A stretch of DNA of 39,799 nt, from contig JADLEX010000031.1 in the NCBI GenBank assembly GCA_020845895.1, positions 1 through 39,799 on the forward strand. Direction: 5' to 3'. The notes below the pieces were generated by a model. The model searched no databases and was not told the DNA's origin. It saw nothing but the letters and a program-made list of their open reading frames with translations. Both the position numbers and the translations under genes were made by a program. This document shows positions 14,501-35,997 of the stretch, in pieces. The DNA is from Deltaproteobacteria bacterium. GTDB lineage: Bacteria; Lernaellota; Lernaellaia; JACKCT01. Position 1 is the stretch's first letter. The number at the start of each line of letters is the position of its first letter.

Positions 14501-14515
14501 GATGAGCCGTACCCG

Positions 14516-15562: not shown

Positions 15563-15564
15563 GG

Positions 15565-16842
15565 TCAGTTCTCGATCTTGCGCAGGCGGCCGAGCGTGAA
15601 CTCCTCGGGTTTCATCCCGGTGTTCGCGCGCGACTTCTGCCACCCGAAGGCCGTGGCGTGCTCGGACTGCAGGTCCACGACGAGCGAGGTGCCGATCGCC
15701 GCAGGCGTCGTCTTCGGATTCGGAGACGCGTTCCACGCGTTCACAAGCACTTTCCAGAGCTGGCCCTTCTTGTCGAAGGCGTCTTTGACCGCGATGAACG
15801 AGCTTTCGGCGTCCACATAGAACACCATCTTGCTGTACGGATAGTCGGGGAACTTGGCCTTGACCTCAAGCACGTACACGGGCCGCGGTTCCCACTTCGC
15901 CTTGAAATTCCAGTGCGGCGCGTTGTCGAAGTCGTAGACCTGCTTCACGGCCTCCTTGCCGTGAGGAACCTGCGAATTCATCGGCAGGAGCATGGTCTTC
16001 TTTTCCTTGAGGGTCCAATTCATCCACTCGGGGTAGCCGAGGTAGCCGCGCACGTCCTCGTAGAGCAGGTCGGTGTTGTTCCACGCGTCGCCGCGCGTAC
16101 CGAACGCAAAACGCGTCGATTTGCGCTGCGCGGGGACGTAGATGTAGCCCTGCTGGTCCTGCGGCTCGATCATGCGCGTGTAGAGCGCCGAGAAGCCCTT
16201 CTTGTCGGGCGGCGAAAGGGCGGTCGTCAGTGAATAGTACTGAACGCCTTCCTTTTTCGACTCCTCGAACCCCGGGATCGGCGCGATGTCCGTGCGGTTC
16301 ACGGCGCGGTTGATGTAGGTCCAGATCCAATCCTCGGTGCGCTCGACGCCGCCCTTGGCGCTGATCCAGTAGACCGCGAAGTAGTTCTCGGAATCGTCGC
16401 CGCCGTAAGCGTAGGTGTAGTTCCACGCGATTTCGAGCCCGTTCTTCGGCTGTGGGAACGGCAGGCCCGCCTGATACCCCTCGAGGCCAAGCTTACGGTA
16501 CTGCGTGCCGGTGTCGACGATCTTCGCCGTACCGCGGTACTTGTTCGTCACGTCGATGTAGGTGTCCGCGGGGACGATGGGCTGGTAGTCCTTCGTGTAG
16601 ATCTTGAATCCGTACTTGGTCATGAGAACCTGGACGCCATCCGGGATCCACGCCTTCCACTTGGCCAGATCACCCGACGTGATCGTCTGTCCCGCCGGTG
16701 GCGCGCCGCTCAGATCAGGGGCGAATCCCACCTCGCTGATCCAGTTTTCCCGCGTGAGCTTGCTCTGTCCGATCGCCGTCGCCGCGAGCACGATCGACAA
16801 TGCGAATGCTGCCACCACGATCCAAGCGGTCCTCGATTTCAT
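15565..16842 (-). CDS. DUF1329 periplasmic protein (LolA/LolB-like fold family)
   Basis: A 425-residue exported protein with a signal peptide (IVVAAFALSIVLAATAIG). Family hallmarks include an N-terminal ISEVGFAPDLSGAPPAGQ-type segment, SGDLAKWKAWIPDGVQVLM, AWNYTYAYGGDD, RKSTRFAFGTRGDAWNNTD, YLGYPEWMNWTLKEKK and a W..RPVYVLEVK strand. DUF1329 proteins are related in fold to the lipoprotein carriers LolA and LolB, with a hydrophobic cavity, which fits a periplasmic carrier for an RND-exported hydrophobic molecule. I chose ATG 16842 with GAGGA about five bases upstream. The 52-base gap to the DUF1302 gene holds a small perfect hairpin (16856-16868). The cargo is unknown. Confidence 0.88.
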   Translation of the reverse strand: MKSRTAWIVVAAFALSIVLAATAIGQSKLTRENWISEVGFAPDLSGAPPAGQTITSGDLAKWKAWIPDGVQVLMTKYGFKIYTKDYQPIVPADTYIDVTNKYRGTAKIVDTGTQYRKLGLEGYQAGLPFPQPKNGLEIAWNYTYAYGGDDSENYFAVYWISAKGGVERTEDWIWTYINRAVNRTDIAPIPGFEESKKEGVQYYSLTTALSPPDKKGFSALYTRMIEPQDQQGYIYVPAQRKSTRFAFGTRGDAWNNTDLLYEDVRGYLGYPEWMNWTLKEKKTMLLPMNSQVPHGKEAVKQVYDFDNAPHWNFKAKWEPRPVYVLEVKAKFPDYPYSKMVFYVDAESSFIAVKDAFDKKGQLWKVLVNAWNASPNPKTTPAAIGTSLVVDLQSEHATAFGWQKSRANTGMKPEEFTLGRLRKIEN

Positions 16843-16855
16843 GACGTCCTCTCTT

Positions 16856-16868
16856 GCCCCGAGGGGGC
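16856..16868 (-). other. Small intercistronic hairpin between DUF1302 and DUF1329 genes
   Basis: GCCCC and GGGGC flank a three-base loop, directly upstream of the DUF1329 ribosome-binding site. No T tract follows, so it is not a terminator. It could stabilise or separate the two messages, or be chance in GC-rich DNA. Confidence 0.35.
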
Positions 16869-16894
16869 CGCGGGTGTGCCTGCGGCAAGTGGAA

Positions 16895-18697
16895 TCAGAA
16901 CTGGTAGCGGATCTTTCCGTACACCTCGTCGCGGTCTCGGAAAAGACCGACGTCGTTGTACGGATCGTCGCCGAAGAGGTAGTTGTAGCCGGTCTCGAGA
17001 CGCCAGTGGTTGCCCGGCGCGAACTTGAACGACGCGCTGACAAAACCGGAGCCCTTTTCGAACGCTTCTGAGTCGAACAGATCGTCCGAGCCCTCGATGA
17101 CCTCTGCGTAACGCGGCACGTAGACCGCCGTGACGCCCGGCGTGAACAGGCCGTGCCAGTAGGTCGTGAATGCCGCAAAGACGAGCGTCGTCATCATCGG
17201 TGTCGGCACCGTCGTGTCATAGCCCGGCGCATAAACGATGTGCCACTTCTCGTTCACCTTCTCGCTGCCGTCCGCGAAAACCTCGCGGACGTACGGATCG
17301 CCAAGCTTGAACTCGCTGTCGTTGATGTCTTCGGGGTTGAAATAGAAACTCTGCATGACACGGAAGACCGTCACGGTCGACGACGTACGGTTCAGAAACC
17401 GCCACTGGTTCGCGCGGAAGAGTTCGAGCGCGTAGTCGAGTGAATGGCGCTCCTCGGAATGCAGTTCCGCGATCTGCTGAGAGTCGCCGGCGGCGACGTC
17501 GCGATCGAGCGCACGCCAGGTGCCGCCCCCCGCCATCACGCGGTTGTCGGGCGAATAGCCCGCCGAAAGCAGCGAGTTCACCGCGTAATTCACGCGCGGG
17601 GTCACCGCCGCTTCGAGCTTGAGCACCGCGCCGATCGGAGACTCGAATGCGTAGTCCAGTGAGAATCCGTAGGTGTCGATGCGCGGAATGCGCAGGAAGA
17701 CCTTGGCCCGCGTGTACCCATCGGAGTCCGCGATCGGATTCTTGATGACGTGATCCGGAATCGGCGGCGAGAGCTGGTGGCCGTGATACGCAACCAGCGT
17801 GTAGGTCATCTTGCCGAGCACACCCTTCCACCGCGCGCCGAGTCGCATGTCGGACAGGTCGTTCTTGGGATACATGACGACCTTGTCCTCGATCTTGAGA
17901 TCGGACACGTAGTCGTTCTTCGGAGCGAGCGGAAGTCCCCACGCGCCGACAAACGTGAGCGGTGTATTGATGGTGTCTTCGGGATCGTCGACGAGGGGGA
18001 CGAAGACGCCCTCCAGCGAACCCGACAGCGCGGGCACGTCGACGAGCGCCTTCACCATGTAAAGCGGTTTGCGAATGTCCTCGAAGCTCTCGAACGGCGC
18101 GAGATGCCAGGACGAATCGACGGGGTTGATGACGTCCAGCAACCGAATGTTGCCCATGTCGCCCCAGCTCACCTGCTGTCGACCGATGCGGAAGTTCAGC
18201 CAGTCTGCGGCATCGAGGTCCAGGTAGATCTCGCGGAACTCGTTCTCGGTGTAGTAGCGCTCGCGAACCGTCTGCATCTTCTCGGCCTGAACGTCGACGT
18301 CGTCGTTGTACTTGGTGTCGGCGATCATGTCGGGAACCTGTGCGTATCGGTCTTCCTTGAGCGCGCCCGAACGAACCCCGCGGAACGCCGCGTAGAAGCG
18401 GATGTAGTCCGTGGGCTTATAGTCGGCTTCCAGCATCAGCGTGTGGCGAAGCATGGACGGCGCACCGGCCCGGTCGCCGTGCTCGATCGGAAAGCCTTGG
18501 GGATCTTTCTTGTTGTGGAATTTCGTGTCGGTGAAAAGACCGTACTGAGCCTGAAAATAGCCGCTGAGTTCGAACTTCGGCGCGTCATCGCCACCGCCGC
18601 CGCCACCCCAGTCGTCGCCCTCCTCGGCGCGCGCCTGGCCCGACAGGCAGATCAAGAGAATCGTCGCGGTCATGACGGCTGCGAACGCGTGACGCAT
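16895..18697 (-). CDS. DUF1302 outer-membrane β-barrel protein
   Basis: A 600-residue exported protein with a cleavable signal (FAAVMTATILLICLSGQARA) and a short Gly/Asp-rich segment. A barrel follows, rich in alternating strands and ending in a typical C-terminal aromatic residue (GKIRYQF). Family features include FELSGYFQAQYGLF, LMLEADYKPTDYIRFYAAFRGV, DLDAADWLNFRIGRQQVSWGD and LDVINPVDSSWHLAPFESFEDIR; the GRQ..WG..NP.D pattern is the DUF1302 signature. It is presumed to sit in the outer membrane as the outer end of the RND/DUF1329 pathway. ATG 18697 is preceded by a strong GGGAGGAGAGG. It is followed on the same strand by DUF1329. Confidence 0.9.
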   Translation of the reverse strand: MRHAFAAVMTATILLICLSGQARAEEGDDWGGGGGGDDAPKFELSGYFQAQYGLFTDTKFHNKKDPQGFPIEHGDRAGAPSMLRHTLMLEADYKPTDYIRFYAAFRGVRSGALKEDRYAQVPDMIADTKYNDDVDVQAEKMQTVRERYYTENEFREIYLDLDAADWLNFRIGRQQVSWGDMGNIRLLDVINPVDSSWHLAPFESFEDIRKPLYMVKALVDVPALSGSLEGVFVPLVDDPEDTINTPLTFVGAWGLPLAPKNDYVSDLKIEDKVVMYPKNDLSDMRLGARWKGVLGKMTYTLVAYHGHQLSPPIPDHVIKNPIADSDGYTRAKVFLRIPRIDTYGFSLDYAFESPIGAVLKLEAAVTPRVNYAVNSLLSAGYSPDNRVMAGGGTWRALDRDVAAGDSQQIAELHSEERHSLDYALELFRANQWRFLNRTSSTVTVFRVMQSFYFNPEDINDSEFKLGDPYVREVFADGSEKVNEKWHIVYAPGYDTTVPTPMMTTLVFAAFTTYWHGLFTPGVTAVYVPRYAEVIEGSDDLFDSEAFEKGSGFVSASFKFAPGNHWRLETGYNYLFGDDPYNDVGLFRDRDEVYGKIRYQF

Positions 18698-18784
18698 ACC
18701 CTCTCCTCCCAAGCGAACGGAAAAAATCAAATCGAGGAACGGAAATTCGCCGGTCGACCCGCGCGCCCACGTGTTCGCGGATCG

Positions 18785-18827: not shown

Positions 18828-19775
18828 TCAGTTCGTGCAGAACGCCGCGTTCGGATCGGAGTCGTACACCACGGTCGTGATCGCCACGCAGTCGGCGCAC
18901 AGATACGGGATCGTATCGGTGGCTTCCACGTCGTCGATATTGGCCGTGACCGTGTACGAACCCGGATCGGCGTTGACGCCGACGAAGAAGCTCATCTTGC
19001 CGCCGTCGCCGTCGAGCACGCCGTTGGTGCCCTTGCCGTTTTCGTCGCCGATGCCGTCGCCGTCGGTGTCGCGTTCATCGGTCGGGAGCACGCCGAGCAC
19101 GCTCTCCTTGAAGTAGTGAACCTCGGAAACGCCCGGATCGAATGTCACTTCGGCGCAACCGACGGGATACTCCTCCGTGCCGTCAGACCAGTAGACGCCG
19201 CCGGAGGCGAAGCCCTTTGTGGGATCGGGGGTGATGCCGAGCAGGCCGGAAACGAGCGTCACGACGGTATTCGAAACCGCCAGGAACTCCTCGTTCGCGG
19301 TCCCTGTCTCGAAATGGAACTGATAGGTGTCCTTATAGCCGTTGTACGTGACTTTGATGGCCACGGCGCCCTTGGCGTCGTCGGGAATCCCAGTCAGGGT
19401 CACGAAACCGTTCTCATCCGCGGTCTCAATGATCGGCGGATCGAATGAGGAACCGTCCTCGTCGTTCACGGCTTCGACGGTCGCTTCCGGAAGCGGTGTG
19501 CCTTCCTTGAAGTCGGTCGCCGTTCCGCTGATCGAGCTGCCGTCCACCGTGTCGTCGTCGCCGGTGTCGTCGTCGGCGTCGTCATCGGCGTCGTCGTCCG
19601 TCGCGTCGTCGTCGGTGTCGTCGTCGGTGTCGTCATCGGTCGCGTCGTCGTCGCCGCTCGACGAATCGTCATCGTCGTCGTCGCCGCCGCACGCGGCCAC
19701 GAACGCCAGCGAGCCCATGGTCAGCACCGCGACGAGCGCGACCAGCATGCGCCAGAAAGAATCCTTCGCTTTCAT
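18828..19775 (-). CDS. Asp-rich lipoprotein with a carboxypeptidase-regulatory-like domain (paralogue of the next gene)
   Basis: A 315-residue lipoprotein of unknown function. The signal peptide ends SLAFVAAC, followed by an Asp/Thr stretch of about 45 residues. The globular part opens with SISGTATDFKEGTPLPEATV, which resembles the β-sandwich carboxypeptidase-regulatory (CarboxypepD_reg) fold, and continues through GFVTLTGIP. Then come QFHFETGTANEEFLAVSNT and GGVYWSDGTEEYPVGCAEV, and a calcium-binding-like DTDGDGIGDENG. The C-terminal part has two Cys (YLCADC) and a final FCTN. It shares this plan with the upstream neighbour. ATG 19775 has GGAGG about ten bases upstream. It precedes the DUF1302 gene on the same strand. 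Confidence 0.75.
   Translation of the reverse strand: MKAKDSFWRMLVALVAVLTMGSLAFVAACGGDDDDDDSSSGDDDATDDDTDDDTDDDATDDDADDDADDDTGDDDTVDGSSISGTATDFKEGTPLPEATVEAVNDEDGSSFDPPIIETADENGFVTLTGIPDDAKGAVAIKVTYNGYKDTYQFHFETGTANEEFLAVSNTVVTLVSGLLGITPDPTKGFASGGVYWSDGTEEYPVGCAEVTFDPGVSEVHYFKESVLGVLPTDERDTDGDGIGDENGKGTNGVLDGDGGKMSFFVGVNADPGSYTVTANIDDVEATDTIPYLCADCVAITTVVYDSDPNAAFCTN
19551..19690 (-). repeat. Low-complexity Asp-codon repeat in the lipoprotein N-terminus
   Basis: Imperfect GAC/GAT triplets with single ACC and GCG codons encode the Asp/Thr-rich spacer just after the lipid-modified Cys. It resembles the tract in the SGNH hydrolase at 3838-4035, though there the spacer is C-terminal. Confidence 0.8.
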
Positions 19776-19918
19776 GTCGTGTTCCTCCAATAGAGTCTTC
19801 AGTCGTTACGAAACCCTTGGCAGGCGTCGCCACATGGCGGCGCCGTCAAACGCAAGTCCCGATCAAACCGTGTCTCGACCGGGCAAATCTCGCGGCCGGG
19901 ATCCGACCGCGCCCCACA

Positions 19919-20830
19919 CTATTGAGAGCACCAGGACGGAGTCGGGTCCTCCGTGAAATCGCCCTTGGAAAAATAGACGTTCTGAATTGTCGCCGTACCC
20001 GGATAGACGCGCGGCATGACGTTCGCCGAGCTCTGCGACGCATCCAGCGATCCGCTGCCTTCCGCCTCGAATGTACGTCCCATGATGAGCAGGGGATATG
20101 CGATCTCCTTGTTCAGCGACACGTAATAGCTGATCGCCTGGCCCTTGCCGTCGCGGCCCGGGTTCGTCCCCTGTCCATTGGCGGGGGTATCGCCGGTGAT
20201 GTTCCTCGCCGCATTCGGCAGCGCGTCGTTCCCGAAGTAAAAAACGCCTTGGCCATCGTCGGGCTGGAACGAAATGACGCCGCATCCGATCGGATTTTCG
20301 TCGATCGGGTCGCCCCAGTACATGCCGCCCGCGGTCACGGCCTTCGTCAGGTCGAGGCACGGAGCGTCGTCGGTCACCTCGGCGCAATCCGGCTGCAAGC
20401 CGAGACCGAGCGCCACCAGGTCGCGCGTCGCGTTGCTGATGAGCAGGAATTCCTCGCCCTCGAGGCCTTCGAGAAAGTCGAATTGCACCGTGTCGGTTGC
20501 GCCCTCTTTTTTCACGAGAACGCCGACTTTCGTGATGCCCTCGGGAAGATCGAAGGAAACCTCGCCGTTCGCCGGCGACGTGGCCGTGACCGGCGGGTCG
20601 AACGGCTCGCCCGTGACATTGTTCACGAGTTCGACCAACGCGCCCTGGACTTCGGTCTTCGTCTGGAAATCGCGAACGAATCCGTTGAGCGTCCCCGCCT
20701 CACCGGTCGCGGATGCTCCGGACCCGCTCACCTCGACGATGTATTCCCCGCCTTCGCACGCCACGAACAGCGAAATCAGGCAGAGAACGCAGACGACACC
20801 CATGCCCACCGCAAAATGCAGCCGTTTCAT
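19919..20830 (-). CDS. Lipoprotein with a carboxypeptidase-regulatory-like domain (paralogue of the 18828-19775 product)
   Basis: A 303-residue exported lipoprotein of unknown function. Its lipobox is ISLFVAC followed by EGGEYIVEV. The body aligns along its length with the downstream neighbour: GTLNGFVRDFQTKTEVQGA, FDPPVTATSPANGEVSFDLP, DTVQFDFLEGLEGEEFLLIS, then GGMYWGDPIDENPIGCGVI and a final SWCSQ. It lacks the Asp-rich spacer. ATG 20830 is preceded by AAGGAGAAG, and a plausible promoter stands upstream, so it is probably the first gene of the long minus-strand block leading to the RND exporter. A link to that pathway is positional only. Confidence 0.73.
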   Translation of the reverse strand: MKRLHFAVGMGVVCVLCLISLFVACEGGEYIVEVSGSGASATGEAGTLNGFVRDFQTKTEVQGALVELVNNVTGEPFDPPVTATSPANGEVSFDLPEGITKVGVLVKKEGATDTVQFDFLEGLEGEEFLLISNATRDLVALGLGLQPDCAEVTDDAPCLDLTKAVTAGGMYWGDPIDENPIGCGVISFQPDDGQGVFYFGNDALPNAARNITGDTPANGQGTNPGRDGKGQAISYYVSLNKEIAYPLLIMGRTFEAEGSGSLDASQSSANVMPRVYPGTATIQNVYFSKGDFTEDPTPSWCSQ

Positions 20831-20895
20831 TACTGGACTTCTCCTTCGAGCGCTCGAAGCGGCAAGATTCCGGCCCATGCATACAGTACGGTGAG

Positions 20896-20925
20896 TTTTT
20901 AGCAGAACTCCCCGTTTTGCGTCAA
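20896..20925 (-). promoter_or_regulatory. Possible promoter for the lipoprotein/DUF1302/RND block
   Basis: TTGACG (20925-20920), an 18-base spacer and TAAAAA (20901-20896) on the minus strand, 66 bases upstream of the ATG at 20830. The rest of the 20831-21036 gap holds AT-rich sequence near 21000-21030 and no gene I can support. Confidence 0.4.
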
Positions 20926-21036
20926 GCACAAAGCGGAAAGTCCGCGAAATTCCGGGGATTCCCAGCGGGTTTTCGAAGGGCGCGGAAACGCGACGGATTT
21001 AGTCTATATGGTTATCGAGATAATTTAAATATCGGT

Positions 21037-24936: not shown

Positions 24937-25113
24937 GTGGAATCCCAAAATTGCCTGATTACCATGGCTTTGGTCGTCGTGGTCACCATCGTGGTGGTCA
25001 CGCTTCTGATCCTTCTCCGGGACATCGTGCGCTTCTTTCTGAAGAAGACGCAGGTTCGCGCCTCGTCGCAACGCCCTCTTCCTCGCCCTGACGTCAAGGA
25101 CGGTGTCCGATGA
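24937..25113 (+). CDS. Very small single-helix membrane protein at the head of the polysaccharide locus
   Basis: A 58-residue product beginning at GTG 24937. One strong membrane helix (MALVVVVTIVVVTLLILLRD) is followed by a basic, cytoplasm-facing tail (FFLKKTQVRASSQRP) and a polar end. AAGGG lies six bases before the GTG. A later ATG at 24964 would start right at the helix. Its stop overlaps the ATG of the degenerate GGDEF gene (ATGA at 25110-25113), which is good evidence that it is translated. Its position recalls small partner proteins of GT2 synthases such as PgaD, although PgaD is larger with two helices. Its role is unknown. Confidence 0.6.
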   Translation: MESQNCLITMALVVVVTIVVVTLLILLRDIVRFFLKKTQVRASSQRPLPRPDVKDGVR

Positions 25114-25964
25114 AAGCGAACAACGACAACGCGAAATCGTCCGAGATCCTCGACCTCGTGGTTCTCGGCGCGCTCGGCGCGGCGTTTGGCTTCCTGTTCA
25201 TCTACTACTTCAAGATCCGCCAATACGAGGCGCTCACGGTTGTCGTCACGATGCCGGTGGCGTTTCTCGCGATCACGCGGGGTCTGAAGTTCGGCGCGAT
25301 GGGTTCGATCTTCGGCGCCGCCATTTACGGCAGCCTCGTTCTGTTCAAGATTGTCCAGGGAACGGCCCAAGCCGGATTCATCCGCGAGAGCATCGTCAAC
25401 ATCGGGATCATCGTGGTGATCGGGTTCGTATTGGGCACGATCTCGGAGACGATGAATTTTCGCCGGGCCGGAGTCTTCCGCGAGGTCACGACCGTCGAGA
25501 CGTTCGTGCCGGATGAAGAAACGGGGCTTTACAATTTCAAGAGCTTCCGCTGGATGCTCTCGGGAGAAATGAAGCGCGTCAAGCGCTACAACACGCCCCT
25601 GTCGCTGGTCTTCGTCCGCATCAACAACCTCGGCGAGTTCCAGAAACGCTACGACTACGAGCAGGAAGTCGCGCTCTTCCGCGATATCGGCCGTTTTCTT
25701 CGCAGCATGCTGCGCGACGCCGACTACGTCGGAAAATACGCCGACTCGGAACTCGGAGTCATCCTACCCGAGACGAATGCGAACGGCGTGAATATCGTCG
25801 TCACGCGTTTTCTGGAGCGACGCCAGACGCTGCTCGCGCAGGTCGGCAAGACGTGGGACGAGGTCGTTCCCGAGCTGTCGCTCAGCTCGGCGAATTTCCC
25901 CAAGGATGCGACAAATCTCGAAGAGCTGATCGACGTGATCGACAGCCGATATCAACCCCTCTAA
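25110..25964 (+). CDS. Membrane protein with degenerate GGDEF domain and intact I-site; probable c-di-GMP receptor
   Basis: A 284-residue inner-membrane protein. About four helices fill residues 13-115 (DLVVLGALGAAFGFLFIYYF, VVVTMPVAFLAI, SIVNIGIIVVIGFVLGTI). A GGDEF-type domain follows from about 135 (DEETGLYNFKSFRWML). The catalytic GGDEF is replaced by ADSEL (211-215), so it should not make c-di-GMP. The inhibitory I-site RxxD (R202-D205) is kept at the exact family spacing. This is the arrangement of c-di-GMP receptors such as PelD and Listeria PssE. There is no GAF domain as in PelD. It is coupled to the tiny upstream membrane protein and followed 27 bases later by the DUF2334 gene, so it probably switches polymer synthesis on. 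Confidence 0.82.
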   Translation: MKANNDNAKSSEILDLVVLGALGAAFGFLFIYYFKIRQYEALTVVVTMPVAFLAITRGLKFGAMGSIFGAAIYGSLVLFKIVQGTAQAGFIRESIVNIGIIVVIGFVLGTISETMNFRRAGVFREVTTVETFVPDEETGLYNFKSFRWMLSGEMKRVKRYNTPLSLVFVRINNLGEFQKRYDYEQEVALFRDIGRFLRSMLRDADYVGKYADSELGVILPETNANGVNIVVTRFLERRQTLLAQVGKTWDEVVPELSLSSANFPKDATNLEELIDVIDSRYQPL

Positions 25965-25991
25965 GGAGACGCGGCCCATCATCGCGCGCCC

Positions 25992-28118
25992 ATGCGAACG
26001 ACCCTGATCGCCATATTCGCGCTCGGTTTGATCATCGGCGTACTGTTCGTCACGATGAATCAATTCGAGGAAAAAGCGCCGGACTTCGGACCGAGAGGCG
26101 ATCTCGTGCTCGTCATTCACGACGTCGTGTCGCCGGGTGCCCCCGCCGCCGATCAACTCGTCAGCGCGCACTCCATCGTGCAGTTGTTGGGGCACTTCCC
26201 CGTCAGCACGCGCCTCGTTTCGACGGGCGATTACGAAAAGGGCATGCTCTCCGAGGCGGCCTACGGAATCTATGTCGGCACCAAGACCGATCAACCGTTG
26301 CCGACCTACCTCCTCGACGACATCTTCCAGTCGACGCGTCCGTTTCTGTGGATCGGAGCGAACCTCGAGCGCCTGCAAGCGCGCCACAATCTCGACAACT
26401 TCGGGATTCGAGCTGTCGAGGGCGGCGACGCATTCGCGACCAACGTCGTTTATTACAAGAATCAGCCGCTCGCGAAGATCGACCTTCGGACCTTCAAGGT
26501 CGACGTCACGCGCTCGCAGGCGGCGCAGGTGCTCGCCGAGGCGAAGTACGTGTCCGATCCGCCCAAGCCCGCGCAGGCCGGACTCGATATCGAACCCGGC
26601 ACACCGGCGCGGCTGCCGTCCATGGTCGCGGACGAGGTTCTGCCCGTCGGTTTGCCGCCGCTGCCCTCCGTCGACGTTCCGCCGATGCCGGCTCCTCGAA
26701 CCGCCGGCGAAACGGCAATGGACATCGAATCGAAGACGATCGCCGGAGTCTCGCCTCCTGCGGTATCCGCGGTGACGGGCGACGGCCTGCCCGTGCCGCC
26801 TTCCGCGACGCCTCCCGCTGTCTCGCTGCCGTGGATCGTGCGCGCGCAGAACTTCTGGTTTGTGGCGAGCGACCCCATTGCGTACCATATCGAGGGCGGC
26901 GCGTATCTCGCCTTCGCGGACGTTCTCTACGACTTCTTCGGCGAGAAATCCGGCGAAGAGCACTTCGCCTTCGTGCGCATCGAGGATGTCCACCCGAAAC
27001 GCGAACTGGACACGTTGCGCAAGGCCGCGGACCTGCTCGCCGAGCGGGATGTGCCGTTCGCCTTCACGCTCGTGCCGGTTTACAAGAACGGTGAGAACGG
27101 CGAGCCGATCTATCTCTCCGAAGCGCCGGAGTTTCTCAAAACGGTCCGCTACCTCATCAGCAAGGGCGGCGTGCCGATCCTGCATGGATTCACGCACCAG
27201 CACACGGCGGAATCCGCGGTCGATTTCGAATTCTGGGAAGGCGAAACGGGCGGACATCCGATCGCGCAGGACAAGACCTTCGCGTCCCAGCGGATCGAGC
27301 AGGCGCTCAACGAGTGCTTCGTCAATGAAATCTATCCGCTCGCGTGGACCACGCCTCATTACGCGGCCGGCCATGCCGACTACGACGCCTTCGCGGACTA
27401 TTTCACGACGGTCGTTGAACGGCGAATGCCCGTCGAAGCGTACGGCTCGGATCAGTTCTTCCCTTATCTGATCCAGTCCGACATGCACAAACAGATCATC
27501 ATCCCGGAGTCGCTCGGCTACGTGAATCCCGGCGTGGGCCGCGATGCCGCCGCGCTCCTGCGCGACGCGGACGCGATGAAGGTCGTACGCGACGGCTGGG
27601 CGAGCTTTTTCTTCCACACCTTCCTCGATCTCAACCTGCTCACGCAGATCGTCGACGGACTCAAGGAGCGCGACTTCCGTTTCGTGTCGCTCACCGAATT
27701 CAACAACAAGGTCACAACGCGCGACCGCGTGGTCGTCTCCGGAGTGAGCGAGGTGCAACTCACGCTCGACTCCCAGTACCGCAACGAGCGGACCTATAAC
27801 GATCGAGGCGAGTTGCTCGACGAGAACTTCTCCTTCGGCACCGTCAAGGGCAACGTCACCAGTCTCGTCACACTGCGACCCGACGAATTCCAGGTGATTC
27901 AGGGCGTCTATCGGCGGCCGCCGGTCACCGTGACGACGCTCAACCTCTTCCGGCCGACCATCTCGGGCATCTCCAATCCCGTCGCGATCGTGCTGCTCTT
28001 CATCGGCATGATCACGCTGGTGCTGTTTCTCGGGATCTGGATCTTTCTGGTCACCCGGCGAACGGTCGCCGGCGCGAAAAGAATGGCGGCAGTCCGCCGT
28101 CACACGGAAGAATTCTGA
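25992..28118 (+). CDS. Membrane-anchored DUF2334 polysaccharide deacetylase-like protein
   Basis: A 708-residue envelope protein. An N-terminal helix (LIAIFALGLIIGVLFVTM) anchors it, and a soluble domain to about residue 190 and a Pro-rich linker (about 195-285) follow. The DUF2334 catalytic part has RIEDVHP with D332, HGFTHQH with H398 and H402, TTPHY, and FFFHTFLD. These metal-site motifs match the polysaccharide deacetylase superfamily. A second helix lies near the C-terminus (PVAIVLLFIGMITLVLFLGI). By analogy with PgaB it may N-deacetylate the growing polymer in the periplasm. ATG 25992 has AAGGAG about 20 bases upstream. Its stop overlaps the GT2 start (TGATG). Confidence 0.82.
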   Translation: MRTTLIAIFALGLIIGVLFVTMNQFEEKAPDFGPRGDLVLVIHDVVSPGAPAADQLVSAHSIVQLLGHFPVSTRLVSTGDYEKGMLSEAAYGIYVGTKTDQPLPTYLLDDIFQSTRPFLWIGANLERLQARHNLDNFGIRAVEGGDAFATNVVYYKNQPLAKIDLRTFKVDVTRSQAAQVLAEAKYVSDPPKPAQAGLDIEPGTPARLPSMVADEVLPVGLPPLPSVDVPPMPAPRTAGETAMDIESKTIAGVSPPAVSAVTGDGLPVPPSATPPAVSLPWIVRAQNFWFVASDPIAYHIEGGAYLAFADVLYDFFGEKSGEEHFAFVRIEDVHPKRELDTLRKAADLLAERDVPFAFTLVPVYKNGENGEPIYLSEAPEFLKTVRYLISKGGVPILHGFTHQHTAESAVDFEFWEGETGGHPIAQDKTFASQRIEQALNECFVNEIYPLAWTTPHYAAGHADYDAFADYFTTVVERRMPVEAYGSDQFFPYLIQSDMHKQIIIPESLGYVNPGVGRDAAALLRDADAMKVVRDGWASFFFHTFLDLNLLTQIVDGLKERDFRFVSLTEFNNKVTTRDRVVVSGVSEVQLTLDSQYRNERTYNDRGELLDENFSFGTVKGNVTSLVTLRPDEFQVIQGVYRRPPVTVTTLNLFRPTISGISNPVAIVLLFIGMITLVLFLGIWIFLVTRRTVAGAKRMAAVRRHTEEF

Positions 28119-29398
28119 TGCCGTACGCGAACGTCTATATCGATCTTTGCTTCCTGTCCGCGGCGATCGGCATCTGGCTCTTCCTGCTGTTCAACGTGCT
28201 GCTCACATTCTTCGCGTTCCTCAACGGCCTGTCGTCCGAGAAAGAGCGCGCGCGCCTGTTTTCGGAGTCCTTCCCCTTCCCGTTCGTCTCCATTCTGATT
28301 CCCGCGCACAATGAAGAGCTCGTCATCGAGCGCACGGTGCAGGCGATGCTCGCGCTCAATTATCCCAAGGAGCGTTTGGAGATCATCGTCGTCAACGACG
28401 GGAGCAAGGACCGAACCGGCGACGTGGTCGCCGAAATCGCCGCGCGGCACCGCGAGGTCAAACTTGTCACCGTGCCCGAGGGCGAAGGCGGCAAGGGCAA
28501 GAGCCGCACGCTCAACGTGGGCCTCGAACACGCGATGGGCGACGTCATCGCCGTGTACGACGCGGACAATCGCCCCGAGCCCGACGCGCTTCGTTACCTC
28601 GTCGCCAACCTCGTCGAGGACCCGAAACTCGGCGCGGTCCTCGGCAAGGTGCGCACGATCAACCGCGACCGCAACTCCCTGACGCGGTTCATCAACCTCG
28701 AATTCATTTCGTTTCAGTGGCTCATGCAGGGCGGGCGCTACAAGCTGTTCAACCTCGCGACGCTGCCCGGCACGAACTACGTGATCTGGCGCAAGGTGCT
28801 CGACAAGGCCGGTCGCTTCGACGAGGAGGCGATCGCCGAAGACGCCGAGCTGTCGATCCGCCTGTACGAGATGGGCTACCGCATCAAGTTCATTCCCTAC
28901 TCCGTCACGTGGGAACAGGAGCCGGAGGACGTCAAGACCTTCGTCCGCCAGCGAACGCGATGGGTCCAGGGGATGACCTACATCGTCCGCAAGTTCCTCA
29001 AGGTCGCGTTCCAGATGAAGAACCGGCGAATCATGTTCGACCTGTTCTACATGTTCAGTCTCTACTACGTCTTTTTCTTCGCGCTCATTCTGTCGGACGT
29101 GATCGCCGTCCTCGGGCTGCTCGGCTTCATCAAGCTCGGGCTCGTCGGACCCTTCACCTTCATCTGGTTCCTCGCGATGATGCTGTTTTTCATGCAGTCG
29201 CTCATCGCCATGAGCCTGGAGGAGGAAGAGTCATTCCTGAACATCCTGCTCTCGCTCATCATGTACGTCACCTACTGTCAGGTTTGGATTGTCATCGTCT
29301 TCCGCGCGTTCTGGATCGACGTGATCCGACGACGAAAAGGAACGGTCTGGGAAAAAACGATCCGGTACAAGATGCGCGAGAAGCAGGCGGATGGATGA
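28118..29398 (+). CDS. Processive GT2 glycosyltransferase (exopolysaccharide synthase, PgaC/HAS-like)
   Basis: A 426-residue inner-membrane synthase. One helix (about 10-36) precedes the cytosolic GT-A domain; several helices follow from about 300. The processive GT2 motifs are complete: NDGS with D94, DADN at 148-151, PGTNYVIWR, ED at 241-242 and QRTRW at 278-282. It should polymerise a nucleotide-sugar and extrude the chain through its own membrane channel. It lacks a PilZ domain, so c-di-GMP control would have to come through the degenerate GGDEF neighbour. It overlaps the DUF2334 stop by one base and the next gene by eight, indicating tight coupling. The sugar used is unknown; PgaC (GlcNAc) and cellulose/hyaluronan synthases share these motifs. 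Confidence 0.93.
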   Translation: MPYANVYIDLCFLSAAIGIWLFLLFNVLLTFFAFLNGLSSEKERARLFSESFPFPFVSILIPAHNEELVIERTVQAMLALNYPKERLEIIVVNDGSKDRTGDVVAEIAARHREVKLVTVPEGEGGKGKSRTLNVGLEHAMGDVIAVYDADNRPEPDALRYLVANLVEDPKLGAVLGKVRTINRDRNSLTRFINLEFISFQWLMQGGRYKLFNLATLPGTNYVIWRKVLDKAGRFDEEAIAEDAELSIRLYEMGYRIKFIPYSVTWEQEPEDVKTFVRQRTRWVQGMTYIVRKFLKVAFQMKNRRIMFDLFYMFSLYYVFFFALILSDVIAVLGLLGFIKLGLVGPFTFIWFLAMMLFFMQSLIAMSLEEEESFLNILLSLIMYVTYCQVWIVIVFRAFWIDVIRRRKGTVWEKTIRYKMREKQADG

Positions 29399-30590
29399 CG
29401 CGGCTTTCGGCGTCGGGGTGAAGCGGATGCGGATGTGGACCGCTTGCGTGACGGGGGCGGTCTTGATGACGGCGGCAGGGTGCGTGTCCTCCAACGGACA
29501 CGCCGAAGCGCCGATGGATGCGGGAGCGGCGGAACGGGCCTGCAGGGCCTTTTTGGAAACGAGGATGATGACGGCGCAAGGCGGCATTTACACGTTCTCC
29601 CCGATCACGAAGACCTCGTGGTTCGGGCACCCTTCCGTGCGCGTCGAGGACCTGCGCGCGTCGGGGCTGCTGTCGGAGAGCAACGGCATGCTCATGCGCT
29701 ACGCCGTGGACGCGGATGACCGCGCGCTGTTCGATCGTCAGTTCCGTTTCGTCAAAAAGTGGATGACCGGGCATCTTGGTCTGTTTTTCTGGAAGATTTC
29801 GCACGACGCCGAGCTCACGGCGGACTCCACCGCGATCATCGACGACCTTCGAATCGTCGATGCCGCCCTCGCCGCCGGCGAGAAATGGTCGGTCGAGGAG
29901 TACACGCGCTTTGGGTCGGAGATCGCGTACAACATTCTCGAGCTCGAATCGAAGGACGGCTTGCTGCGCGACTTCGTCAGTTGGCGCGACTGGGGCGAGA
30001 ACACCCTCTCGCCGCAAATTCAGCTCTCCTATCTTCATCTCGACGCGATCCGGCGCATCGCCGCCGCGCGCGAGGACTGGAAGGACCTGTACGCGAAGAA
30101 CGCGGCGCTGCTGGCGGACGGTCAGCTCGAGACCGGTCTCTTCTACGAGAAGTTCAACTTCGAAACGCGACGCTACGAGGGCACGCGCCAGAACACGATC
30201 AATCAACTCTACTGCGCGCTTTTTCTCGCGGGACACGATCCGAAAAACCGCCGCGCCCTCGACTTCTTCGCGGCGCGGTGGCGCGAGGACGGCGCGATTT
30301 ACGCCGAGTATGAAGCGCGGAACGAATCGGCGACGAAGGACTACGAGTCGTCGAGCGTGTACGCGCTGCTGGTCAGATACGCGATGCGGATGAACGATCC
30401 CGCGCTCGCGGCCGCATGGCTCAAGAGGCTCCTGGCGTTTCAGGTGTCCGACGAGCACAGCCCCCTGCGCGGATCGTTCAGTGATGACGAGGTTTACAGT
30501 TTCGACAATCTGGAAGCGCTGCTGGCGCTTCGCGAGTATCGTGACGCGAACCGAGACGCGGTCGGACGCGCCGTCCCGAAGGCTCACTGA
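29391..30590 (+). CDS. GH8-like secreted glycoside hydrolase lipoprotein
   Basis: A 399-residue exported lipoprotein with lipobox VLMTAAGC and a helical (α/α)6-type body. LLSESNGMLMRYAV holds the likely general acid E96. ALFDRQFRFVKKWM, GLFFWKI and TAIIDDLRIVDAAL (D151/D152) follow in the order expected for glycoside hydrolase family 8 and its relatives. In cellulose systems the GH8 enzyme BcsZ trims the polymer during export. The start is uncertain: ATG 29391 overlaps the GT2 gene by eight bases, while GTG 29418 gives a more typical short signal peptide. The residues fit, but a GH8-related noncatalytic role cannot be ruled out. It is followed by the porin gene after 37 bases. Confidence 0.7.
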   Translation: MDDAAFGVGVKRMRMWTACVTGAVLMTAAGCVSSNGHAEAPMDAGAAERACRAFLETRMMTAQGGIYTFSPITKTSWFGHPSVRVEDLRASGLLSESNGMLMRYAVDADDRALFDRQFRFVKKWMTGHLGLFFWKISHDAELTADSTAIIDDLRIVDAALAAGEKWSVEEYTRFGSEIAYNILELESKDGLLRDFVSWRDWGENTLSPQIQLSYLHLDAIRRIAAAREDWKDLYAKNAALLADGQLETGLFYEKFNFETRRYEGTRQNTINQLYCALFLAGHDPKNRRALDFFAARWREDGAIYAEYEARNESATKDYESSSVYALLVRYAMRMNDPALAAAWLKRLLAFQVSDEHSPLRGSFSDDEVYSFDNLEALLALREYRDANRDAVGRAVPKAH

Positions 30591-30627: not shown

Positions 30628-33600
30628 ATGAAACGCATCACCGTATTCCTGCTGGCACTGGCGTTGCCCGCGCTTTGGGCGACGTCGGCGTTCGCGGGTC
30701 TGTACGAGGATGGCCTGTCGTATTACGGCTCCGGCCAGTACGGCAAGGCCGTTGCCGCGTTCCAGGCGGCCCTCGAGGCAGATCCGCAAAACCTCGAGGC
30801 GAAGAAGAAGCTGGGCGACAGCTACTACGCGCTCGGGAAAAACGCCGAGGCGGCGAAGGTCTATGAAGAGGTCCTCGCGCAGGATCCCAACGACGGCGTG
30901 GTGCGTCTGCATCTCGCGCAGGTTCGTCAGTGGCAAAACGACGCCGCGCAGGCGATCGAAACGTATACCAATCTGTTGGAGAAAGAGCCCGAGAACCTGA
31001 CGGCGATGCGCGAGCTCGCCGAGGTGTATTCCTGGAACAAGGAGACGTATCCGAAGGGCGTCGAGATCTGTGACCGGATCCTCAAGATCGAACCGAAGGA
31101 TCAGAAGGCGCTGCTCATCAAGGCGCGCCTCACCTCCTGGCAGGGCGAACACGGCAAGGCCGCCGAGGTGTACGAGGGCCTTCTCAAGCTCGATCCCGAC
31201 AACGACACCGCGCGCCTCGAATACGCGAACACGCTTTCTTACGCGAAGCGCTACGACGACGCCATCAACCAATTCAATCTGCTCGTGCTCAAACCGAAGA
31301 TGCGCTCGCAGGCATTGATCGGCCTCGCCGACGCGTACAACTACGGCCAGCGCTACGCCGACGCGGTGCTGACCTATCAGATGGTCCTCGAAAAGGACAA
31401 GAACAACGTGCAGGCGCTGCGTGGATTGGGCAACGCCTATGCGGCGCAGAAGCGCACCCGAGAGGCGGTCGAGACCTACGAAAAACTCGCGACGCTCGAA
31501 CCCGGGAATCAGGAAAACACCCTGGTCCTGGCGAATCTCTACAGCTGGGATGAATCGACCTATCCGCAGGCGATCAAGACCCTCGAGCAGTTGATCGCGA
31601 AAGACCCCAACAACGCCGACGCCAGACGGCTGCTGTCGCGCATCTACACGTTCTCGAACAACCACACCGAGGCGCAGAACCAGTACAAGGCGCTGCTCGA
31701 CGCCGATCCCGACAACGCCGATCTTCGACTCGAATACGCCCGAGCCCTGCGCGAATCGGGGGATTTCGGTCCCGCCATCGAGCAGGTGGATGTCGTGCTC
31801 GGCAAAACGCCGGATGACGTGGACGCCAAGATCGCCAAGGCGCAGATCCTGACGGAATTCGGTCGTCCCGACGAGGCGATCGCGCACTACGAGCAGATCC
31901 TGGCCACCAAGGGACAGGAAAAAAACCTCGACGCGCAGGTCGGCATCGGCCTCGCGTATCACAAGAAAGCGCTCGTCGCGAAAAAGCGCATGGACGAACT
32001 CGAGGCGTCGATCCAGCAGCAATGGCTGGGTGTCTTCGACCGCGTGCGCGCCGTCTTCGCGAAGTGGGATCACGACAGCGCCCGCACCGCCTCGCTCGAC
32101 CATCTCGAACAGGCGGCGAAGGATCACCCCACGTCCTCCCTGCCCTACATCAAACTCGCCGAGGTCCAGATGGACTACGGCGCGAATGAGGACGCGATTG
32201 CCGCCTATCAGAAGGCGGCGCAGGCCGATCCGCAGGATGTCGCGCCGTGGCTGGGCATGTCGGTCGTGTACGGCAAGATGGGCAATCCGGACAAGAGCCT
32301 CGACGCCATCCGTCGCGCGGCGATGATCGCGCCGGACAACATGGAGGTCGTCGGCGGTTTGTCCGACGTCTACACCTATCAGCGCGATACGCAGAACGCG
32401 ATCAAGACCCTCGAACAGGCCCTCTCGACGCACACATCCGATCTCGACCTGCGCCGAAAGCTCGCCATCGTCTATTCGCAGAACAGCCTCTACTACGACC
32501 AGGCGATCGAGCAGGCGAACTACGTGCTCCAGCAGGAGCCGGAGGATTTCCAGACCCGTCTGCTGCTCGCGCGCCTGTATTCGTGGACCGAGAAGTGGAA
32601 CGAGGCCGACCGCGAGTTCCAGGTGCTGCTCTCGAAGATGCCCGAAGATGAGCCCGTGAAGTCCGAGGAAGGCGCGAACGTTCACCTCGCGGAACGCAAC
32701 AAGGAAAAGGCGCTCACCAAGGAAGACCTCTACCTCGAGATGATGCGGGTTCGCTGCTACGGCGGACGCGCGCCCGAGGTCATCGTCGAGCTGACCGACA
32801 AGGTGCAGCAGCAGCCGGACAAGGCGACCTATCGTCTCGCGCTCGCGCACGCGTACGAAATCAACAAGGAATACGAAAAGTCCGAGACCCTCTACACGCA
32901 GGTCAAGGACACCGATCCGCGCAACTCGAACGCCTACATCGGTCTCGGGACCGTCTATCGCGAGACCGCGCAGTACGACAAGGCGGTGCTGGCCTATCGC
33001 GACGCGCTCGCCATCGACAGCGAATCGACCGAAGCCTACTACGGCCTCGGCGTGATCGACCGCAAGAGCGGCAACTACGAACGCGCCATCGCGATGCAGC
33101 GCAAGGTGCTGGAGTACGACCCGACGAACGTCAACGGCTTCACCGAAATGTCGTACAACCACTACCTGCTCTCCCGCCGCTACGTGGCGGTGACCGGCGA
33201 ATACCAGCGCGCATGGTGGCTGCTTCAGAATTCGTGGGGCGATCTCTACGGCATCTACGGCGACTACCCCGCGAACATCGAGCAGATGCGGCGCATCCTC
33301 GAAGACGACCCCGCGAACGTTCAGGTGCGTTACCTGCTCGCGCAGGAACTCGCCGCGCACAATCGCTACAAGGAAGCGGCCCGCGAGTATCAGAAGGTGC
33401 TGGAGTATGACCCGGGGCATGTCGGCGCGCGCCTCGCCCTCGCCGAAATCTTCAGCTACGACCGTGACACTTACGGCTACGCGATCGCGCAGTGCATCGA
33501 GGTCCTGAAAAAGGACCCGGAGAACTTCGACGTGCGGCTGCGCCTCGCGCGGCTGTATTCGTGGTCGGGCCAATTCGAAGCCGCCAGTCAGCAGTATATC

Positions 33601-35997
33601 TGGCTGCTCAATCGGCGGCCCGGCAACCTCGACCTGCGGGCCGAGTACGCGCAGAACCTTTCGTACGCCAAGCGTTACGACGACGCCATCGAGCAATTCT
33701 CCATCGTCCTCTCGCAGGATCCCGGCCGCGAGGACGCGCGCATGGAATTGGCGAAGCTCTTTGCCTACAACAACCGCATTGACGACGCGATGAAGGAATA
33801 CGAGGTCATCCTCAAGCGCAGCCCGAACAACTACGAGGCGGGCTTCGCGCTGGCGAACCTCTACTCGTGGGACCGGCGCTATTATGGCCGCGCGATCGAC
33901 CTGTATCGCCGGCTTTACAACACGTACCCCAAGAACACCGAAGCGCGTCTGGAAATGGGCCGCCTGATGCTGGAACGCGGCGAGTTCGAGGACGCCGAGG
34001 CCGCGTATCGCGACGCCATCGCGCTCGAGCCCGACAACGTGGACGCCCATATCGCGCTGGGCAAGGTCTACATCGGCATGAAGAAGAACGGCGACGCCGA
34101 GAACGAGTTTGCGACCGCGCTCAAGTACGACCCGGACAACGTCGAGGCGCACTTCTATATGGCGAGCGTGCTCTCGATGAATCCCGATCGGTACGAGGAC
34201 GCGATTCCGCACGCCGAATTCGTCGTGAACAAGGAGCCGGAGAACACCGACGTGCGGATTCTTCTCGCGCGGCTTTATTCCTACGAAACGCAGTACGCCA
34301 AGGCCGCGGAGCACCTGCAGTACGTCGTCGATAAGGGCGAAGACGACCGCGAGGTGCTGCTCGAACTTGCGCGAGCCTACAACTACGGCGAGGACTACGA
34401 CTCGGCGCTGAACGTTTACAAGACGATGGTCGAAAAGGACCCGAACGACAACACGGTGCGGCTCGAAATGGGCCTGTGCTTCCTCGCGGTCGGCCAGTAT
34501 CAGGATGCGATCGTCAACCTGGAATATGTCGCCGAGCAGGATCCGTGGAACGTCGAGGGTCGCAAGGGGCTCGCCCGCTCGTACAAGCAGTCGGGCCAGG
34601 TGGATCAGGCCATCGACCAGTACAAGCGCATCATGATCATCAATCCGAAGGACGACGAGGCGGCGCAGTACCTGAAGCTGTACTCGATCGAATACGTGGA
34701 CGGTGCGTTCGTGGACAGCTATTTCATGCTGCCTGGGCCGGGAGGTCCCGGCGGAATCAAACCGGGCAAGGCCTCGCTCTACATGAGCGAGGCGGAGCAG
34801 AAGTATCGCGTCCAACTCGCGAACGAGCTGTACAACCGCCAGAACCTGAAACGGGCGCGCTACGAGTTCGAGAAACTCGTCAAGGCGAATCCGCAAAACG
34901 CCTATTACCATCTGGCGCTGGCGAACATTTATCGGCAGTCGGGCATGTGGCGCTCCGCGATCCACGAATACAAGGTCGCCCAGACGCTGGAGCCCGACAA
35001 TCAGGAAGTGAAGGAAGGACTCGCCCGAGTGGCCTACGAAAGCGCCCCCACGCTGGACGTTTTCGCAGGGTACTCGGAGGCGATCCGTTTCGCCGATCGC
35101 GTCGGCTACTTCGTCGGCGGCGCCGAATTCACCTACCGCTTCCTCGACAACTGGGCCGTCTGGGCGCGGTACGAAGCCGGCCGCTTCGACCAGCAGCGCC
35201 AGGACGTCATCTTCACGCAGTCCCCCGCGGTCGGTCTGCAGCTCGGCCTCGGCGGCGAGGTCGCGATCTCGGGCGAGTACATCTTCAACATCTACGATCA
35301 GAACATCGACCCGACGCACAACTGGGGCGCGCGGGCGAGCTACGACCTGCTCGGCGTCGCCCTCTTCGACCTCGCGTACTCGCGCAAGGACAAGCGCGAG
35401 ACCTTCACGTCGGTCGCGGAGAACATCTATATGGATTCGATCGGACTGACGCTGACGCTGCGCAATTTGATCGGTACGGATTGGGACCACTTCAGCGTGC
35501 TGGGCGAATACGCGTATCGCATCAACAGCGAATCGAAAGGCGACATCGTGGCGCTCGATTCGCAGACGTCCAATCAGGCGCGCGGCGGGCTCGGTTACAC
35601 CTTCTTCGATCCGTTCCAGGTCGCCGACACGTCGATCCTGCTGTCGTACCTGTTCACGTACATCGACAACGAAACGCGCGATCCCTACAACGCCGAGGTC
35701 TACTGGTCACCGCTCGACTTCTACAGCCACTCGCTGCCGATCGGATGGAATCAGGCCGTCACCGAGGACGTGTTCTACAGCCTCGGTGTGTCGCCCACGT
35801 ATTCGTTCGAGGAGGGCGAGGACGGTTGGGGCGTCGGCCTATTCGGCGGCGTCGATTGGCGCATCAACTACAATCACGCCCTATCGCTCGACGCCGACTG
35901 GTCCTATGGCGGTGTGCAGGACGCTTCGTTCTACGCGTGGAGCGTGTTCCTCAACTGGCGAATCTCCTTCGGCGATCACTCCGCGCTGGAGAAGTAG
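30628..35997 (+). CDS. Giant TPR-β-barrel outer-membrane polysaccharide export porin (BcsC/PgaA/PelB type)
   Basis: A 1789-residue protein. A signal peptide (residues 1-23, ending ATSAFA) precedes a periplasmic superhelix of roughly 40 TPR units (about 24-1470). A Gly/Pro loop (GPGGPGGIKPG) near 1370-1380 precedes the last units. A C-terminal domain of about 318 residues has alternating aromatic β-strands and the segment VYWSPLDFYSHSLPIGWNQ, characteristic of 16-stranded export barrels such as BcsC and PgaA. It would conduct the polymer across the outer membrane while the TPRs span the periplasm. Known BcsC, PelB and PgaA proteins are about 800-1200 residues, so this one is much larger. ATG 30628 has GGAAGGA upstream. 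It is the last gene of the locus and converges with the CDF genes. Confidence 0.9.
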   Translation: MKRITVFLLALALPALWATSAFAGLYEDGLSYYGSGQYGKAVAAFQAALEADPQNLEAKKKLGDSYYALGKNAEAAKVYEEVLAQDPNDGVVRLHLAQVRQWQNDAAQAIETYTNLLEKEPENLTAMRELAEVYSWNKETYPKGVEICDRILKIEPKDQKALLIKARLTSWQGEHGKAAEVYEGLLKLDPDNDTARLEYANTLSYAKRYDDAINQFNLLVLKPKMRSQALIGLADAYNYGQRYADAVLTYQMVLEKDKNNVQALRGLGNAYAAQKRTREAVETYEKLATLEPGNQENTLVLANLYSWDESTYPQAIKTLEQLIAKDPNNADARRLLSRIYTFSNNHTEAQNQYKALLDADPDNADLRLEYARALRESGDFGPAIEQVDVVLGKTPDDVDAKIAKAQILTEFGRPDEAIAHYEQILATKGQEKNLDAQVGIGLAYHKKALVAKKRMDELEASIQQQWLGVFDRVRAVFAKWDHDSARTASLDHLEQAAKDHPTSSLPYIKLAEVQMDYGANEDAIAAYQKAAQADPQDVAPWLGMSVVYGKMGNPDKSLDAIRRAAMIAPDNMEVVGGLSDVYTYQRDTQNAIKTLEQALSTHTSDLDLRRKLAIVYSQNSLYYDQAIEQANYVLQQEPEDFQTRLLLARLYSWTEKWNEADREFQVLLSKMPEDEPVKSEEGANVHLAERNKEKALTKEDLYLEMMRVRCYGGRAPEVIVELTDKVQQQPDKATYRLALAHAYEINKEYEKSETLYTQVKDTDPRNSNAYIGLGTVYRETAQYDKAVLAYRDALAIDSESTEAYYGLGVIDRKSGNYERAIAMQRKVLEYDPTNVNGFTEMSYNHYLLSRRYVAVTGEYQRAWWLLQNSWGDLYGIYGDYPANIEQMRRILEDDPANVQVRYLLAQELAAHNRYKEAAREYQKVLEYDPGHVGARLALAEIFSYDRDTYGYAIAQCIEVLKKDPENFDVRLRLARLYSWSGQFEAASQQYIWLLNRRPGNLDLRAEYAQNLSYAKRYDDAIEQFSIVLSQDPGREDARMELAKLFAYNNRIDDAMKEYEVILKRSPNNYEAGFALANLYSWDRRYYGRAIDLYRRLYNTYPKNTEARLEMGRLMLERGEFEDAEAAYRDAIALEPDNVDAHIALGKVYIGMKKNGDAENEFATALKYDPDNVEAHFYMASVLSMNPDRYEDAIPHAEFVVNKEPENTDVRILLARLYSYETQYAKAAEHLQYVVDKGEDDREVLLELARAYNYGEDYDSALNVYKTMVEKDPNDNTVRLEMGLCFLAVGQYQDAIVNLEYVAEQDPWNVEGRKGLARSYKQSGQVDQAIDQYKRIMIINPKDDEAAQYLKLYSIEYVDGAFVDSYFMLPGPGGPGGIKPGKASLYMSEAEQKYRVQLANELYNRQNLKRARYEFEKLVKANPQNAYYHLALANIYRQSGMWRSAIHEYKVAQTLEPDNQEVKEGLARVAYESAPTLDVFAGYSEAIRFADRVGYFVGGAEFTYRFLDNWAVWARYEAGRFDQQRQDVIFTQSPAVGLQLGLGGEVAISGEYIFNIYDQNIDPTHNWGARASYDLLGVALFDLAYSRKDKRETFTSVAENIYMDSIGLTLTLRNLIGTDWDHFSVLGEYAYRINSESKGDIVALDSQTSNQARGGLGYTFFDPFQVADTSILLSYLFTYIDNETRDPYNAEVYWSPLDFYSHSLPIGWNQAVTEDVFYSLGVSPTYSFEEGEDGWGVGLFGGVDWRINYNHALSLDADWSYGGVQDASFYAWSVFLNWRISFGDHSALEK

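Follow-up and report, generated by a model that had tools for sequence, protein, structure and literature searches.

The window, by which we mean the whole stretch of DNA analysed (39,799 nucleotides), carries at 25110..25964 on the plus strand a gene that starts 367 bp past glyS and encodes a YdaK/PssE-like protein of 284 residues, with four membrane helices followed by a degenerate GGDEF domain. This description draws on the translation, Pfam, an AlphaFold2 model and orthologues. Four further plus-strand genes complete an operon. The first (25992..28118) encodes a 708-residue YdaL/PssB-like DUF2334 protein with N- and C-terminal membrane helices, identified by a match to PF10096 (E=4.4e-45) and by alignment to family loci. 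Overlapping it by one base is a gene (28118..29398) for a YdaM/PssC-like GT2 synthase, assigned from Pfam, motifs and homologues, which carries DxD-type and QRTRW motifs as in processive synthases and in which Pfam detected no PilZ domain. The third gene (29391..30590) overlaps the GT2 gene by 8 bases and encodes a YdaJ/PssZ-like GH8 glycosidase (PF01270, E=2.3e-08) with a lipobox-like TAAGC. A minus-strand open reading frame at 25764-28103 that overlaps the receptor gene looks like a GC-rich shadow frame and is without supporting evidence.

The last gene of the operon (30628..35997, plus strand) encodes a secreted protein of 1789 residues with a Sec-type signal, a long and clear array of TPR matches and a strand-rich, barrel-like region in its last 300 residues, resembling exporters of the PgaA/BcsC kind. 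The model of this C-terminal region has a mean pLDDT of 47, which is too poor for a claim of fold, and its weak matches include the barrels of PgaA (4y25), PelB (9h80) and BcsC (9b8h). It is likely, from model and matches together, that the protein ends in a beta-barrel. The genome encodes Omp85 proteins and the cell therefore very probably has an outer membrane. A BcsB-like subunit (YdaN; PF03170) is absent from the operon and was not detected in the whole genome by a search that does detect BcsB in B. subtilis and E. coli.

The GGDEF domain of the receptor spans residues 135-280 (25512..25949) with a PF00990 match that exceeds the Pfam cut-off (E=2.2e-14). The four N-terminal helices, at residues 6-34, 38-56, 60-82 and 88-119 (25125..25466), are predicted by hydropathy and by AlphaFold2 (pLDDT 52-71), and the GGDEF fold is modelled at block pLDDT values of 85-91 across approximately residues 141-240, from a thin input alignment of six sequences. 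The fourth helix ends at residue 119 and the GGDEF domain starts at 135, so that the two are joined directly, and neither Pfam nor the model revealed a GAF or any further domain beyond GGDEF. Superposition of the domain on the c-di-GMP-bound structures 3ign, 5euh and PleD (2wb4) gave Z values of 17-18 and an rmsd of 2.4-2.7 A over approximately 150 residues (VIA-align). The structure prediction that the initial annotation had proposed thus confirms the GGDEF fold, and its description of four helices running directly into that fold agrees with both model and Pfam. PelD was absent among the 50 entries listed in the fold comparison, which is no argument against similarity.

Translation of 25110-25964 also bears out the central reading of that annotation, an I-site motif placed five residues ahead of a dead active site. 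The primary I-site, R202-D-A-D205 (25713..25724), is followed by the spacer YVGKY and then by A211-D-S-E-L215 (25740..25754) at the position of GG(D/E)EF; the three other intact orthologues have SDNEI in place of ADSEL. In the model the RxxD motif sits in the turn joining the helix at 183-200 to the strand at 206-211, and it is in this same helix-strand turn that the I-site of GGDEF domains is located. Alignments identify two further elements of a binding site. R156-V-K-R159 (25575..25586) is the counterpart of the putative secondary RxxR of YdaK (PMC5422440), and R233 (25806..25808) is the counterpart of a third binding arginine, R402 of PelD, which PelD requires besides its RxxD (PMC8461298).

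The receptor and its orthologues were aligned with 22 intact cyclase domains. For reference to PleD, we take its residues D327, N335, D344, R359, D362 and R390 to map on the receptor positions by a constant offset of 157. In this alignment the metal-binding Asp pair is replaced by R170 and N172 and the substrate residues by Q178 and V187, and GG(D/E)EF is also gone. An active diguanylate cyclase is ruled out by the loss of GG(D/E)EF and of the metal-binding pair. R156, R159, R202, D205 and R233 are kept in the receptor and in all orthologues, while every catalytic and substrate residue is lost; R202 and D205 are invariant in the four intact orthologues, which share 51-65% identity. The same pattern holds in the wider family, where 14 of 14 representatives have R202, D205 and R159, whereas D170 and D172 are each found in one of the 14 and N178 and the active-site GG in none. 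Indeed, none of the columns that are invariant in cyclases (G211, G212, N178 and D179) is kept in any of these representatives. R202 and D205 belong to six fully conserved columns of the YdaK-like family, and E176 is invariant across the family but not in cyclases. The invariance of R202 and D205 alongside the loss of D170/D172, N178 and GG argues that the I-site of the receptor is no chance match.

The operon recurs with its gene order unchanged in four other genomes of this class (L009, genome G006; L077, G001; L078, G005; L010, G002). The genome of the window falls within their class, and its GC content of 62% fits. In L010 (JAOSJX010000023.1) the GGDEF, DUF2334, GT2 and GH8 frames are broken by frameshifts and the TPR gene is intact; the broken frames are probably assembly indels arising from long-read errors. 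A search of genome contigs returned only two relatives, both from Deltaproteobacteria MAGs (fen_1099 / FR-FEN-1099), which ties the lineage to the GTDB phylum FEN-1099; this phylum corresponds to Ca. Lernaellota (PMC11382960). No relative of the receptor was found among viral contigs, and plasmid records gave only three weak matches to DUF2334 together with GGDEF matches spanning the GGDEF domain alone.

The closest counterpart of the receptor is YdaK of B. subtilis. This protein has four helices and an RxxD at R202-D205, followed after five residues by SDERI, and mutation of either residue (R202A, D205A) abolished exopolysaccharide (PMC5422440). Binding of c-di-GMP has been shown to alter the conformation of the entire YdaK GGDEF domain (PMC7064775). 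YdaK therefore matches the receptor in its four helices directly joined to a dead GGDEF domain, in an RxxD placed five residues ahead of the dead motif and in the RxxR, and differs in having SDERI where the receptor and its orthologues have ADSEL or SDNEI; the shared R202/D205 numbering is a coincidence. Within the ydaJKLMN operon, production or secretion of the polymer falls to ydaLMN, and ydaJ encodes a glycosyl hydrolase (PMC13274460). Both this operon and that of the window have DUF2334-like, GT2 and GH8 genes beside the receptor, but in the latter the BcsB-like YdaN is lacking, GH8 lies downstream rather than upstream, a TPR protein with a likely barrel is added, and the host very probably possesses an outer membrane. 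PssE of Listeria monocytogenes has an RxxD five residues before DKDDA, binds two c-di-GMP per protein with a Kd of 0.79 uM and is essential for the Listeria polymer (PMC4125290). It resembles the receptor in length (approximately 285 residues), in its dead motif and in the placing of its RxxD, although pssABCDE belongs to a Firmicute host, has another gene order, encodes its GH8 protein (PssZ) apart and lacks an outer-membrane exporter. These comparisons rest on features stated in the papers and on family loci. A single paper in the literature searched names the two proteins together. The initial annotation had named PssE in passing as a comparable receptor and had missed YdaK.

Family loci in other phyla were gathered by a search with the GT2 protein and a reading of the gene surroundings. 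A trio of adjacent TM-GGDEF, DUF2334-like and GT2 genes was found in 13 loci outside the class (L074, L094, L095, L101-L107, L109, L111 and L112), with a BcsB-like (YdaN) gene in 12 of them, confirmed by PF03170 in L094 and L095, and a GH8-like gene in 11; in a further locus, L108, the contig stops short of the position of the receptor gene. The trio together with the BcsB-like and GH8-like genes is the ydaJKLMN set, and from gene content our guess is that the hosts of the 13 loci are Bacillota. The dead motif is DKDEA in L094 and DKEEA in L107, both similar to DKDDA in PssE. The trio's DUF2334 protein in L074 (9059-12013) bears a glycosyl-hydrolase-like (GHL10) domain fused at its N terminus, and a GH113 gene lies nearby.

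PelD of Pseudomonas aeruginosa and Bacillus cereus likewise has four helices and a dead GGDEF domain and serves a PilZ-less synthase. It binds dimeric c-di-GMP via R367, D370 and R402, for which the counterparts in the receptor are R202, D205 and R233. PelD differs in its GAF domain, which separates the helices from GGDEF, and in its other pel genes, none of which was found here, and membership of the receptor in the PelD family was rejected on the absence of the GAF domain. The contrast with PelD drawn in the initial annotation holds as regards GAF but does not make the layout new, as the four-helix-to-GGDEF arrangement is already known from YdaK and PssE and every operon neighbour but the last gene has a counterpart there. 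The PgaABCD and BcsABCZ systems share with the operon of the window a GT2 synthase, in the case of Bcs also GH8, and, if the last gene does encode the likely barrel, a TPR and beta-barrel outer-membrane protein, but they sense c-di-GMP by other means (PgaD and a PilZ domain, respectively), and both systems lack DUF2334 as well as a YdaK-like receptor.

Elsewhere in the genome there are eight apparently intact GG(D/E)EF proteins and 12 PilZ matches, indicating that c-di-GMP is probably both made and sensed. No EAL domain was detected in the genome, and breakdown of c-di-GMP would therefore need another family such as HD-GYP. None of the 12 PilZ matches lies within the window, in agreement with the earlier statement that the synthase is without PilZ. 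A second degenerate GGDEF protein of 332 residues (C11:40110-40574, minus strand; L080 7051-8046) has R-V-Y-D, five residues and then SPGEF, and is possibly another I-site receptor; a protein with two PilZ domains (C11:45027-45656) is encoded approximately 5 kb away.

The protein encoded at 25110-25964 is thus very probably no enzyme but a c-di-GMP receptor of the YdaK/PssE type that switches on the adjacent PilZ-less GT2 synthase. A sensor role had been proposed from the dead cyclase motif and the kept I-site, and it is now the best-supported reading, with R202/D205 in all 14 family representatives and GG in none. Against it stand the missing BcsB-like partner and a tree support of only 86/71. 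By analogy with YdaK, PssE and PelD, c-di-GMP made by the eight apparently intact GG(D/E)EF proteins would occupy the I-site of the degenerate GGDEF domain as an intercalated dimer, held by R202, D205 and R233 and by R156 from a neighbouring domain. The ligand would change the conformation of the GGDEF domain and, through the four membrane helices, switch on the GT2 synthase (28118-29398), which the receptor is presumed to contact. The polymer would then travel through the envelope past DUF2334 and GH8 and exit via the TPR/beta-barrel protein.

Whether the likeness to YdaK and PssE reflects common descent bears on this assignment. A GGDEF domain that degenerated independently and was recruited beside a synthase would work in the same manner without being an orthologue. 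In a tree of GGDEF domains one branch, with support of only 86/71, parts 18 YdaK-like from 22 cyclase domains, and the four class members stand on a long branch (1.39); overall identity of the receptor to other family members is also low at 23-28%, and each of these findings would suit convergence. The gene neighbours, however, are the same and in the same K-L-M order, the proteins have the same length and four-helix plan, and E176, lacking in cyclases, is invariant in the family. The membrane regions of class and other family members were also compared by hhalign, giving E=3e-4, a probability of 41% and a score of 28.1, above all controls (maximum 18.3 in 60 block-shuffled and 12.5 in reversed profiles); a smaller profile set gave E=0.014. 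This profile match is suggestive, not strong, for homology of the helices. Taken together, the sequence comparisons make common descent likely and convergence unlikely.

The domain might alternatively have ceased to need a ligand and now hold the synthase complex together, with RxxD as a relic. Two distant relatives show that the site can change: the TM proteins at L096 10604-11395 and L110 8986-9522, which adjoin a related GT2 and have no DUF2334 neighbour, have a more eroded GGDEF remnant with RxxxD and may be receptors with lost or changed ligand binding. A relic would be expected to decay as the active site did, yet R202 and D205 are two of the six columns conserved throughout the family, where cyclase columns of equal conservation have disappeared, and such a scaffold is improbable. 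GGDEF I-sites can bind related dinucleotides, and a Geobacter GGDEF protein (6d9m) is among the close structural relatives, but it is very improbable that the receptor senses 3',3'-cGAMP or another such molecule through the same site, since each of the genome's eight intact GGDEF domains carries Asp at the equivalent of PleD D344 (column 187), a position at which Hypr cGAMP synthases have Ser.

With a YdaK/PssE-type receptor as the preferred reading, the operon appears to be a diderm form of the Yda/Pss system, a Yda/Pss core with Pga/Bcs-like export. That it constitutes a distinct diderm machine for synthase-dependent exopolysaccharide, combining a Yda/Pss-type receptor, DUF2334 and GT2 with a giant TPR/beta-barrel export protein and no BcsB-like subunit, is a proposal to which we give even chances. 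The literature searched held no link of DUF2334 to c-di-GMP or polysaccharide, and unpublished or paywalled accounts of diderm versions are possible. The switching of PilZ-less synthases by YdaK/PssE receptors, described in this literature from Bacillus and Listeria, would extend to an uncultured outer-membrane lineage, and the operon suggests that the receptor-synthase core can dispense with a BcsB-like subunit. The residue comparison across the family, in which I-site residues are kept and every catalytic residue is gone, provides targets for mutation.

Three other groups of genes in the window, all on the minus strand, may be mentioned. At 12002-18730 an MMPL/RND protein, a YCF48-like BNR-repeat protein and DUF1329 and DUF1302 outer-membrane-type proteins are encoded in a row, which we take to resemble a lipid-transport-like cluster known in Proteobacteria. 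Two adjoining genes for cation-efflux (CDF) zinc transporters (36009-36905 and 36925-37857) are likely a duplication. A tandem pair at 18828-19790 and 19919-20929 encodes lipoprotein-like proteins of similar build, one of which combines a CarboxypepD_reg match with a long stretch of low complexity that is rich in Asp and Thr (DDDDT).
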